DNA of 22,551 nucleotides from positions 1-22,551 of IMG/VR virus record IMGVR_UViG_3300011116_000850. The stretch is one strand, 5' to 3'. The notes below the pieces were generated by a model. The model ran no database searches and was not told where the DNA came from. It saw nothing but the letters and a program-made list of their open reading frames with translations. This stretch comes from a virus. Position numbers and translations under genes: made by a program. Shown here in pieces: positions 7,314 to 21,694 of the stretch (its first letter is position 1; the number at the start of each line of letters is the position of its first letter).

Positions 7314-9182
7314 TTATCTTGTGTAGGGTCCATTTAAGTAACTTGAAGTTGAAGTATATTGAGTAGCTGAAGTATTTTCTCCAGATTCAATAATATCTTC
7401 TATAGTATTTACCACACTATTTGAAATATCTATTTGAAGGTATATATCTTTTAGTGCAATTATATCATTTGATTCTGGAGATGCTTCAATTTGAATAACA
7501 CCAGATTCAAGAGATGTCGAAACAATATTAATTACATCCAATATAATTTCTCCATTTATATAATCAACCTTTCCAGCATTGCTTTTTACAATTACTGGAA
7601 GATTGTCTACAAGTTTGAATAAAACAAGTTTTCCAGAAGAGGTTGAAGTTGGAGAATCCGTAATATATAAAGTTTCTGTGAATTCATTAGTCTTAAATCC
7701 AGAAGATTTAATACTATAGTTATTTGTTTTCTGATGAAATTTATTACCAAAACATAATTCATAAGTTGCAAATGTATTAAATGCTGGTTGCAAATCTCTT
7801 CTCATTTTAACTTTTGTAATATTAGATGTAATTGCTTTATTTGTATTATCAATTAGTGTATTTACTTTGCTATATTTAAATCTTCCACCAAAACTGTTTA
7901 CATCTGTAGATTTTGAATATGTAGTTAAAGTATTAATAACTTGATTGCGAAGTAAACTTGAATCTGCAGTAAATGACTTATTGTAATAAATTGTTGTGTC
8001 TATTTCCACATAAAGATATTTCAAATCAATAATTTCTGGTTTAATTCCAGCAATGCTATATTGTTTTAATTTTTTCTTAATATCATTTTTGGTGATCTGA
8101 GATAAAAAACTTCCATTTCTTGGTTTGATTGAAATGAAGACCTTTCCATATTCTGGTGGATCTAACTCATCTCCACCATATGCAGTTACTGAATCTACAT
8201 TAGTGTAAAGATAAGGAATTAATGATTTATAATCATTTGCTGTGACCGCTCTATATTGTGATGCATAAACTCTTGGGGCAAGATATTTGACAGAATCTAC
8301 TGATTCGATGTCATCTCCATTCTGAGACGACATTTCGGTGGATAGAAGAGAAATTCCAGAAGTAATATCATTTCCATTATTGTCTACAAGAGATCCAGAA
8401 AAAGTAAAATTGGATGCTCCATTTGCATTTTTTCCGTTAGTTACAATATATGAAATAGTTATAGTGCTACCGTTTTCCGGTTTTTTCCCAAGTAAATTAT
8501 CACCAAAAAGAATTTCATATTTTTCGTCGTTTATTTCCTGAATTAAAAATATTTTAGAATTCTTATCAATATTTAAAATATTATCATACAGTGAATATTT
8601 TTCGGTTGAAGTTAGAGTTACCTTTACATTAATTGTAGAAGTATCAATATCAGAGTTATTTAAAATATATCTTTGATTTGGTTGACTATAATCAATTATA
8701 AAACTTTTAGTTAGATATGATCCTTCATAGATCGATAAACTATTAAAATATGCAATACCAGAGTTGTCAACCGTAACTGTTATGTCTGAAGGAATTGAAA
8801 ATATATAATTGCCCGATTGAACAGCACCTAAAGCAACAATTCCTGCATTAAGTGTTACTGTTCTTGAATTTAAATTTCCAGTATCTACTGCAAACGAAAT
8901 CTTCGATTCTGCTGATCTTTTTGATCGTGGAATATAACCAATATTTCTTACAAGAGAAACAACATTTTCTCTTAATGTTGCTGAATCAATGAATGATTCA
9001 TTCACCTGCATATTCGTATTATATGCAGTAATATAACTATTATAAGCTAAAATATCTATTAAAATTGAAAAGTTAGATCCCTCAAAATCGAAATCAGTAA
9101 AATTTGAATCAGATCTCAAATAATCTTTAATCTGAGATTTTAAATCGTTAAAATCTAAATTTGTAAATTGATTGAAGGACAT
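7314..9182 (-). CDS. 6: Baseplate wedge protein gp6
   Basis: This 622-residue protein is close in size to T4 gp6 (about 660 residues) and to cyanophage homologues. The N-terminus (NFTDFDFEGSNFSILIDILA, then YNSYITAYNTNMQVNESFID) is the recognisable gp6/baseplate-J-like opening. A middle segment reads APRVYASQYRAVTANDYKSL, a hallmark of the family. The protein forms the dimeric wedge subunit of the T4-type baseplate inner ring and changes conformation during sheath contraction. Its ATG overlaps the gp25 stop by one base (TAATG), and its own TAA abuts the ATG of the giant structural protein, so the three genes form one late operon. Codon use is AT-rich like that of its neighbours. I am confident of the family; the C-terminal third is less conserved and was assigned by continuity of the frame. 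Confidence 0.93.
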   Translation of the reverse strand: MSFNQFTNLDFNDLKSQIKDYLRSDSNFTDFDFEGSNFSILIDILAYNSYITAYNTNMQVNESFIDSATLRENVVSLVRNIGYIPRSKRSAESKISFAVDTGNLNSRTVTLNAGIVALGAVQSGNYIFSIPSDITVTVDNSGIAYFNSLSIYEGSYLTKSFIIDYSQPNQRYILNNSDIDTSTINVKVTLTSTEKYSLYDNILNIDKNSKIFLIQEINDEKYEILFGDNLLGKKPENGSTITISYIVTNGKNANGASNFTFSGSLVDNNGNDITSGISLLSTEMSSQNGDDIESVDSVKYLAPRVYASQYRAVTANDYKSLIPYLYTNVDSVTAYGGDELDPPEYGKVFISIKPRNGSFLSQITKNDIKKKLKQYSIAGIKPEIIDLKYLYVEIDTTIYYNKSFTADSSLLRNQVINTLTTYSKSTDVNSFGGRFKYSKVNTLIDNTNKAITSNITKVKMRRDLQPAFNTFATYELCFGNKFHQKTNNYSIKSSGFKTNEFTETLYITDSPTSTSSGKLVLFKLVDNLPVIVKSNAGKVDYINGEIILDVINIVSTSLESGVIQIEASPESNDIIALKDIYLQIDISNSVVNTIEDIIESGENTSATQYTSTSSYLNGPYTR

Positions 9183-11937: not shown

Positions 11938-11974
11938 TTTTTTCTTGTTTTTTGTCTTCAAAAAATATATATGT

Positions 11975-12082: not shown

Positions 12083-12252
12083 ATTTTTTTCCTCGGAAAT
12101 TTTTTTATATAACAGGTAAACCCCTCAACGATTTCAAATGGACTCGTAATCACTCACTCGTTTTTGGTCCGTTGTAGGTTAGGGTAGTTTGCCTTTTTTA
12201 TATCGGGGCATCGGTTTATAATAACAAACAAACAACGTTGAATATAACTGTC

Positions 12253-12269
12253 AAACAGTGCTGTATAAT
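12253..12269 (+). promoter_or_regulatory. ACAGTGCTGT element with TATAAT, left copy
   Basis: AAACAGTGCTGT at 12253-12264 is repeated exactly at 12823-12834, and both copies run into a TATAAT (here 12264-12269, overlapping by one base). The right copy belongs to a perfect sigma70-type promoter. The left copy has no good -35 at 17 bp. ACAG-TG-CTGT is itself a small inverted repeat and may be a regulator site placed on the promoter spacer. Confidence 0.35.
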
Positions 12270-12329
12270 AATATACACGAACAACAAAATGTTGTTTATT
12301 GTACTAAACTATTTGATATTATTAGAAAC

Positions 12330-12390: not shown

Positions 12391-12559
12391 TTTTCCACAG
12401 GACGATAGGGGTTTTCCACAGGTATTCCACAGGTTTATGAGGTTTTCCACAGGTTTATCAGAGTTTTCCACAGGACGACGAAGAGTTTTCCACAGGTTTA
12501 TGAGGTTTTCCACAGGACGACGAAGAGTTTTCCACAGGTTTATCAGAGTTTTCCACAGG
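12391..12559 (+). repeat. Phased array of nine DnaA-box-like iterons (TTTTCCACAGG)
   Basis: Boxes start at 12391, 12412, 12423, 12443, 12464, 12486, 12506, 12528 and 12549; eight are exact TTTTCCACAGG and the third is TATTCCACAGG. Intervals are 21, 11, 20, 21, 22, 20, 22 and 21 bp. That is 158 bp over 15 helical turns, or 10.5 bp per turn, so all boxes face the same side of the helix. Spacers alternate between ACGACGAAGAG and TTTATGAGG or TTTATCAGAG types. TTTTCCACA matches the DnaA-box consensus known from cyanobacteria (E. coli uses TTATCCACA). This fits cooperative loading of host DnaA; the functional reading is inference. Confidence 0.8.
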
Positions 12560-12561
12560 GC

Positions 12562-12587
12562 AAATCTTATAAACCCTTACAAACACT
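12562..12587 (+). repeat. 26-bp direct repeat, copy 1
   Basis: The sequence starting AAATCTTATAAACCCTT and ending AAACACT recurs at 12789-12814 with two differences (AC versus GG in the middle). The two copies bracket the distal DnaA-like boxes and the ACGAAGT repeats. Confidence 0.7.
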
Positions 12588-12602
12588 ACAATTAATTATA
12601 AA

Positions 12603-12683
12603 CCTGTGGAAAACTTTTACAACGAACAGTTCTTATACTCTATACTACCACGAACAACCTGTGGAAAACTATTTTTCCACAGG
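12603..12683. repeat. Three further DnaA-like boxes, two forming a perfect inverted repeat
   Basis: CCTGTGGAAAA (minus-strand box) occurs at 12603-12613 and 12658-12668, and TTTTCCACAGG at 12673-12683. The last two form CCTGTGGAAAA-CTAT-TTTTCCACAGG, an 11-bp perfect inverted repeat with a 4-bp centre. The change from direct to inverted orientation separates this part from the phased array and could allow bridging or hairpin formation. Confidence 0.75.
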
Positions 12684-12757
12684 ACGAAGTAGTATCATAC
12701 TCACAAATACACGAAGTTATTATCTCAGTCCACGAAGTCATTCTATCACACGAAGTC
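12684..12757 (+). repeat. Four ACGAAGT repeats
   Basis: ACGAAGT occurs at 12684, 12711, 12732 and 12750; the last three are preceded by C, giving CACGAAGT, and the last two read CACGAAGTC. Related ACGAAGAG words form the spacers of the DnaA-like array. They may be a second protein-binding iteron family. Confidence 0.45.
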
Positions 12758-12769
12758 GGGAGTTGTCAA
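12740..12769 (-). promoter_or_regulatory. Strong sigma70-type promoter reading left
   Basis: The minus strand has TTGACA (12769-12764), an 18-bp spacer and TAGAAT (12745-12740), with TGA before the -10 as in extended -10 promoters. Its -35 sits in an 11-bp inverted repeat shared with the opposing promoter at 12814-12842. It would transcribe through the box array toward the small genes at 12082-11628 and perhaps beyond. Confidence 0.55.
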
Positions 12770-12788
12770 GTGTCTCATAATGTGTTGG

Positions 12789-12814
12789 AAATCTTATAAA
12801 CCCTTGGAAACACT
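12789..12814 (+). repeat. 26-bp direct repeat, copy 2
   Basis: Second copy of the AAATCTTATAAACCCTT element at 12562-12587, with GG in place of AC in the middle. Its end overlaps the -35 of the rightward consensus promoter. Confidence 0.7.
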
Positions 12815-12842
12815 TGACAAATAAACAGTGCTGTCTTATAAT
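12814..12842 (+). promoter_or_regulatory. Perfect consensus sigma70 promoter reading right, with no sense gene downstream
   Basis: TTGACA (12814-12819), exactly 17 bp, then TATAAT (12837-12842): all 12 consensus bases at optimal spacing. The spacer holds ACAGTGCTGT. Every gene to the right is on the other strand, so a transcript would be an origin primer, a small RNA, or antisense to the genes from 13045 onward. Confidence 0.65.
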
Positions 12843-12880
12843 TAACAGGCTTAGAAGACTAAAAGAACTTATAATACTTC

Positions 12881-12934
12881 ATAATAACACACATTACTCT
12901 ATAAGATCTTATAATAACACACATTACTCTATAA
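12881..12934 (+). repeat. AT-rich 30-bp tandem repeat, possible unwinding element
   Basis: ATAATAACACACATTACTCT occurs exactly at 12881-12900 and 12911-12930, each followed by ATAA; a third partial ATAATAACACAT follows at 12931. The surrounding 12840-13040 is dominated by A/T with TTATAAT words. It could be the DNA-unwinding element of the putative origin. Confidence 0.6.
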
Positions 12935-13044
12935 TAACACATATAACATCATCATTATATCACATTATAACAATACTTAACAATTACTAACATACATTTT
13001 TAATCATATTTAATCATTACAAAATAGTAACGTATTATACAACA

Positions 13045-13251
13045 CTACGTTACATATATCTCATTCATTCGTATGAGTTGATTACGAATATCGAATACTT
13101 CCATATCATCCATATCAATCATTTCCATTTCTACAGGTAGAAACTCATTTAAATTGATTGAACCATTCTCATACAATGGAGCAAATGTAAGTTCATCATA
13201 TTCATCGAGTGAGAATACACAACCGTATCCTTCTTTGTAGATCATGTTCAT
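13045..13251 (-). CDS. Small acidic protein, unknown function (68 aa)
   Basis: The product opens MNMIYKEGYGCVFSLDEYDE and continues into a highly acidic, Met/Asp-rich stretch (VEMEMIDMDDMEVFDIRNQL). It is a soluble protein of unknown family; strong negative charge could mimic DNA or bind a basic partner, but this is speculation. The ATG overlaps the stop of the preceding gene in an ATGA, so it is translationally coupled. A second in-frame ATG two codons downstream could be used instead. It is the last gene of the operon running from 14287 and lies next to the origin-like region. Confidence 0.7.
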   Translation of the reverse strand: MNMIYKEGYGCVFSLDEYDELTFAPLYENGSINLNEFLPVEMEMIDMDDMEVFDIRNQLIRMNEIYVT

Positions 13252-21622: not shown

Positions 21623-21694
21623 CAGGCACACCTGGAATCGAACCAGGAACACAATTTTAGAAGAATCGGGTTATGTCCATTTAACTATGTGCCC
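21623..21694 (-). tRNA. tRNA-Arg (anticodon UCU)
   Basis: A 72-nt cloverleaf on the minus strand. The acceptor stem GGGCACA pairs with TGTGCCT (first pair G-U), and the D stem is GTTA/TAAC. The anticodon stem is CGATT/AATTG with loop CTTCTAA (U33, anticodon TCT, A37), and the T arm CCTGG-TTCGATT-CCAGG is standard. The discriminator is G and CCA is not encoded. It decodes AGA, a codon far more common in AT-rich phages than in many hosts; an Arg(UCU) tRNA is typical for cyanomyoviruses. Confidence 0.9.

Follow-up and report, generated by a model that had tools for sequence, protein, structure and literature searches.

The window analysed here, that is, the whole 22,551-bp stretch taken from the IMG/VR virus record IMGVR_UViG_3300011116_000850, is by its sequence a fragment from the genome of a T4-like cyanophage. 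It encodes homologues of the baseplate proteins gp6 and gp25, SpeD, the phrog_1574 protein and a cyanophage helicase. Nearly all of its likely genes are carried on the minus strand, and no convincing gene is seen in the roughly 1.1 kb that separates two minus-strand ORFs, one of which starts at 11961 while the other ends at 13045. A tRNA gene was also found at 21623-21694 on the minus strand (Rfam RF00005, 56 bits).

Two divergent promoters lie in this segment. The rightward one (TTGACA-17-TATAAT, plus strand, 12814-12842, with the -35 at 12814-12819 and the -10 at 12837-12842) matches the consensus at 12 of 12 bases, is directed against the neighbouring genes and has its predicted start near 12849. 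The leftward one (TTGACA-18-TAGAAT, minus strand, 12740-12769, with the -35 at 12769-12764 and the -10 at 12745-12740) matches 11 of 12 bases, presents an extended -10 (TG before the -10) and has its predicted start near 12733. Both -35 boxes are inside the arms of an 11-bp inverted repeat, where TTGTCAAGTGT (12763-12773) is the perfect reverse complement of ACACTTGACAA (12810-12820); the arms stretch to 14 nt at 93%. The repeat, the two opposite promoters and the full consensus match of the rightward one were all found exactly as a preliminary description of this DNA had reported them. These promoters were the only sites with at least 11/12 matches in the entire 22.5 kb, and a divergent pair of that quality within 100 bp appeared in none of 400 dinucleotide-preserving shuffles of the window. 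A lone 12/12 site, in contrast, was present in 41 of 400 dinucleotide shuffles (about 10%), so that a single perfect promoter is unremarkable by itself. Similarly, the 11-bp inverted repeat alone is weak evidence because about 1.2 are expected per shuffled window, and 6 of its 11 bases are forced by a perfect -35 in both promoters. Since it was limited to the window and the close relative L180, the repeat is not a conserved part of the locus. The weight therefore rests on the combination of promoters and repeat and on recurrence in relatives, not on single elements. As a separate observation, a unit of the ACAGTGCTGT-TATAAT-like type occurs twice in the window, in the spacer of the rightward promoter (12823-12847) and 570 bp leftward (12253-12277), and related ACTGTCAAACAGTGCTGT units are present in L017 and L180.

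The array of boxes beside these promoters had been noticed in the preliminary description, but its identity was missed: TTTTCCACA is the published cyanobacterial DnaA box (PMC6323995, PMC4674748), and we identify the neighbouring boxes as cyanobacterial-type DnaA boxes. Eight exact direct copies (plus strand, starts at 12391, 12412, 12443, 12464, 12486, 12506, 12528 and 12549) form an array at 12391-12557, mostly 19-22 bp apart and with the near-match TATTCCACA (12423-12431, plus strand) inside it. After this array come a facing box across 56 bp (12605-12613, minus strand), the next box 55 bp on (12660-12668, minus strand) and then its partner in a 13-bp pair (12673-12681, plus strand). All 11 exact copies of TTTTCCACA in the window fall within 12391-12681 (about 290 bp), against 0.6 expected, and this number was reached in 0 of 100 shuffles, indicating that the cluster of host-type boxes is above chance. 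A core element, AAATCTTATAAACCCTTACAAACACT, is located between the facing boxes (12562-12587, plus strand). Its second copy, AAATCTTATAAACCCTTGGAAACACT (12789-12814, plus strand, 92% to the first), had gone unnoticed; it occupies the segment between the two -35s and runs into the rightward -35. The core at 12562-12587 was also found in seven relatives (L001, L003, L006, L011, L017, L129 and L184), and the gap between facing boxes holds in relatives a conserved core of the TTATAAACCCTTGCAAACACTA type; L003 and L017 agree with the window in the 55-56 bp separating facing boxes and in having a pair 13 bp apart. In blastn searches, the box-bounded core gave no match among isolated phages.

Downstream of the rightward promoter, the predicted non-coding transcript (12849-13029, plus strand) is AT-rich, contains imperfect repeats and coincides with a candidate DNA-unwinding region. 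The plus strand presents one G only at 12870-13020, and the 100-bp segment of lowest stability in the window, 12930-13029, falls inside the predicted transcript, as would be expected of an AT-rich unwinding element. A degenerate T-rich element, ACATACATTTTTAATCATATTTAATC, lies at 12990-13015 (plus strand) and is represented in relatives by the TATGTTTTTTTAACCATTTA type. Among the isolates that have this element, five out of six carry a single copy per genome; when three mismatches were allowed, it was missing from several well-studied phages.

Comparison with related phages places the rightward promoter within a conserved and previously unannotated non-coding module, whose order is TTGAC-17-TAnnnT, an unstructured, AT-rich and ORF-free stretch of about 50-200 nt and a T-rich element of the TATGTTTTTTTAACCATTTA type, with DnaA boxes, where present, before or after. 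In relatives, the T-rich element lies about 50-230 nt past the -35, and a scan revealed TTGAC-17-TATAAT-like sites followed by CTTAGAYnACAA, beside boxes, in dozens of fetched loci. The module was present in metagenomic relatives and in the isolates S-PM2, Syn1, Syn9, S-RIM2, S-RIM4, S-CREM1, S-WAM1, Sf-FS3, P-TIM40 and S-RSM4; it was not found in the examined stretch of ACG-2014d and S-SZBM1. It lies between annotated genes in most of the loci with fetched annotation, and in Syn9, at about 52.6 kb, it overlaps predicted small ORFs; in S-PM2 its position is about 19.2 kb. Its direction is against the main gene orientation (small loci were ambiguous), and it is kept while the flanking genes vary between phages. 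A shorter form (type B), found in S-PM2, Syn1, Syn9, S-RIM2, S-RIM4 and S-RSM4, carries no good -10, the -10 position being TAAGAC or TAAGCC. Because most of the search patterns included the promoter hexamers, hexamer conservation was partly selected for. The TG of the extended -10 was not a selection criterion, and it was conserved with 1.7 and 1.5 bits in 22 type A loci.

Boxes adjoin the module in most Synechococcus-type phages that were examined and, of the isolates listed above, in the first seven; they are lacking beside it in Sf-FS3, P-TIM40, S-RSM4, L026 and L056, while exact TTTTCCACA boxes are lacking in L002, L014, L026 and L056. Given these phages with a module but no boxes, a role of DnaA cannot be general. 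Among the loci sampled by the phrog_1574 protein only, the module was present in all 10 that combine a box cluster with sufficient flanking sequence (L001, L003, L004, L006, L007, L009, L011, L012, L017 and L022). In long records the boxes were clustered, with five out of six at one locus in S-CREM1 and six out of seven in a 250-kb record, and three out of five in S-RIM4 adjoin the T-rich element. L001 keeps the module although the boxes around its core (8120-8235, reverse complement) are TTCTCCACA and not TTTTCCACA, a concerted change that looks as if the specificity of the binding protein had shifted.

The leftward promoter also recurs. In L180 it is a perfect TTGACA-18-TATAAT (12/12) at the same position as in the window, and 13 out of 34 loci, against 0.2 expected, have a leftward promoter matching 11 or more of the 12 bases in the 300 bp to the left of the module. 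Syn9 and S-RIM4 have a 12/12 leftward promoter, with -35s about 40 bp apart, and in Sf-FS3, L056 and L230 the -35s are about 57-58 bp apart. Divergent promoters are therefore recurrent, and the leftward gene cluster is probably also driven by the leftward promoter. Recurrence in related phages strongly supports both promoters as real elements, as the preliminary description had proposed, although it missed the family-wide module and stressed an inverted repeat that is not widely kept.

Several other elements were observed around the module. In several relatives (L002 8240-8400, L001 8350-8470 and L006 6080-6180, all reverse complement, and L180 10070-10180), the rightward promoter is closely followed by tandem repeats of about 28-60 nt, whose sequence differs from one relative to the next. 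A near-perfect hairpin, AGACTCATA-AGATG-TATGAGTCT, is found in the interval separating box array and promoter in L017 (4315-4350, reverse complement) and in the same place in L003, L006 and L011; the window lacks it. Many module loci (for example, L150 4490-4525) conserve the sequence GTGCCAGTYCTnnnAGTGTC some 20-40 bp upstream of the -35; this possible activator site is also lacking in the window. A second conserved non-coding element is the 64-bp stretch at 12137-12200 of the window, which contains TTGTAGGTTAGGGTAGTT and shows 86% identity to an unannotated Sf-FS3 site about 560 bp from the module of that phage; L016, L056, L116, Syn9 and S-WAM2 have shorter matches to it (TGTAGGTTAGG) on the left side of their modules. 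The gut microvirus intergenic region of Microvirus mar31 (MZ089777.1, 1953-2077) matched the TTTTCCACAGG repeats of the window only and was set aside.

What the rightward RNA might do had been left in the preliminary description to three possibilities: a primer, a small regulatory RNA or control of the genes at 13.0-14.3 kb by antisense transcription. The 29 module transcripts examined contain no start (ATG or GTG) of an ORF longer than 27 aa, and thus the statement that the promoter has no sense gene downstream holds. A structured regulatory RNA found no support, as the region gave no Rfam family match and 22 transcripts analysed with RNAalifold and single-sequence folding showed no conserved structure (mean folding z of +0.38, alifold energy of 0). 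Antisense control is unlikely as a conserved function because the module is kept beside differing genes and ends at the T-rich element, which usually precedes the next ORF (70 aa or longer) by 30-250 bp. Of these three possibilities, a primer RNA is the one we favour.

On balance, we consider it somewhat probable that the site belongs to a candidate replication-origin-like locus in the T4-like cyanophages (Kyanoviridae). The simplest competing reading is a region that controls divergent transcription, in which the leftward promoter would serve the leftward genes, the rightward RNA would be antisense or regulatory and box-bound DnaA would time early expression. The recurrence of leftward promoters in the gene direction, the aim of the rightward promoter into oppositely oriented genes and the inverted repeat, which could serve both promoters as a common operator, are consistent with such a region. 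We nevertheless consider it unlikely, since the module persists although the flanking genes differ, its transcript has no conserved structure and would usually come to the T-rich element before it entered a gene, and the AT-rich region and the geometry of the boxes would be left unexplained. Still less convincing is a DnaA-titration site like datA, whose boxes would sequester host DnaA and block host replication, with the promoters being unrelated to them. The density of exact boxes, eleven over some 290 bp, would suit this function, but many phages have only 2-4 boxes, some carry the module without any, and the boxes adjoin the promoter and the T-rich element in each of the 10 array loci that were sampled independently, which makes titration improbable. 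We give even less credit to boxes acting as iterons for a phage initiator or a partition-like system, bound by a phage protein and not by DnaA, because, although GG is kept after many boxes, the boxes of L001 changed in concert to TTCTCCACA, pairs of which are rare in cyanobacteria (14 out of 242 genomes), and T4 oriE has iterons (PMC3016281), the 9-mer is identical to the DnaA box published for cyanobacteria, and pairs with a similar spacing, about 21-22 bp, occur in a cyanobacterial genome.

Returning to the origin-like locus, it would possibly be transcription-primed, by analogy with T4 oriF, and DnaA-assisted in Synechococcus phages; from the anatomy and conservation of the site we infer a transcription-assisted opening, possible priming and help from DnaA. 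Early in infection, host RNA polymerase would transcribe easily melted DNA, and the duplex would be opened either by an R-loop formed with the nascent RNA or by the negative supercoiling behind two divergent polymerases. Where boxes exist, bound host DnaA would aid the opening and the loading of the replisome. The first fork could be started by the RNA 3′ end or by primase on the displaced strand, and recombination-dependent replication would take over afterwards. In a more tentative extension, many T4-like cyanophages might share one conserved start locus, a T4-type transcription-primed origin at which host DnaA works together with a transcript made by the host polymerase. Within this extension, and with the same reserve, the host chromosome initiator may have been recruited, the boxes being gained, lost or retuned according to the host.

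In the complete genomes of S-CREM1, Syn9, Syn1, S-PM2 and S-RSM4, none of the GC3-skew change points fell on the module, and raw GC and AT skews were monotonic in S-CREM1 and a 182-kb record, with no strand-composition switch at the module. Although a clean switch of this type is not expected under recombination-dependent replication, the skews lend the origin reading no support. The phages that carry a module but no boxes, the poor -10 of type B, the degenerate T-rich element of the window and the phages in which the T-rich element or the module was not found also weigh against that reading. Among the open-access papers searched, we found none linking a cyanophage to a DnaA box or to an experimentally mapped origin. 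Synechococcus and Prochlorococcus are killed on a large scale by T4-like cyanophages, and a conserved candidate at a single locus with sharp boundaries makes the question of their origin directly testable in cultured phages. If the reading is true, a T4-like origin equipped with host DnaA boxes would couple the replication of the phage to the replication control of its host.

The locus recalls several known systems. It resembles the DnaA-box type of cyanobacterial oriC in the exact TTTTCCACA cluster beside AT-rich DNA (PMC4674748, PMC6323995), and differs from it in belonging to a phage genome, in having no adjacent dnaN and an outward promoter with a T-rich element, and in that its DnaA binding is putative. 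With T4 oriE it shares repeated short sites and an early-type promoter (PMC3016281), although the repeats are 12-nt phage iterons in T4 and host-type DnaA boxes here. For Syn9, from the same phage family, PMC2984593 mentions a predicted single theta origin, citing Weigele 2007. Synteny with the T4 uvsW-oriF-25 region, prompted by the helicase about 2 kb rightward of the locus, was dropped because this helicase represents a separate cyanophage family (418 phage records) with weak similarity to UvsW. The likeness to T4 oriF, also called ori(uvsY), and to oriG lies in the architecture, which in this T4-like setting consists of a promoter and then an AT-rich unwinding region; oriF forms R-loops, and its downstream unwinding element has no sequence-specific requirement (PMC3016281). 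At oriF the promoter is a MotA middle promoter and the use of DnaA is not described (PMC3016281), whereas the promoter found here is of the host sigma70 type, with a TTGACA -35, and cyanomyoviruses lack motA (PMC2984593). Unlike that of oriF, the cyanophage promoter opposes the surrounding genes and is flanked in many members by DnaA-box arrays.
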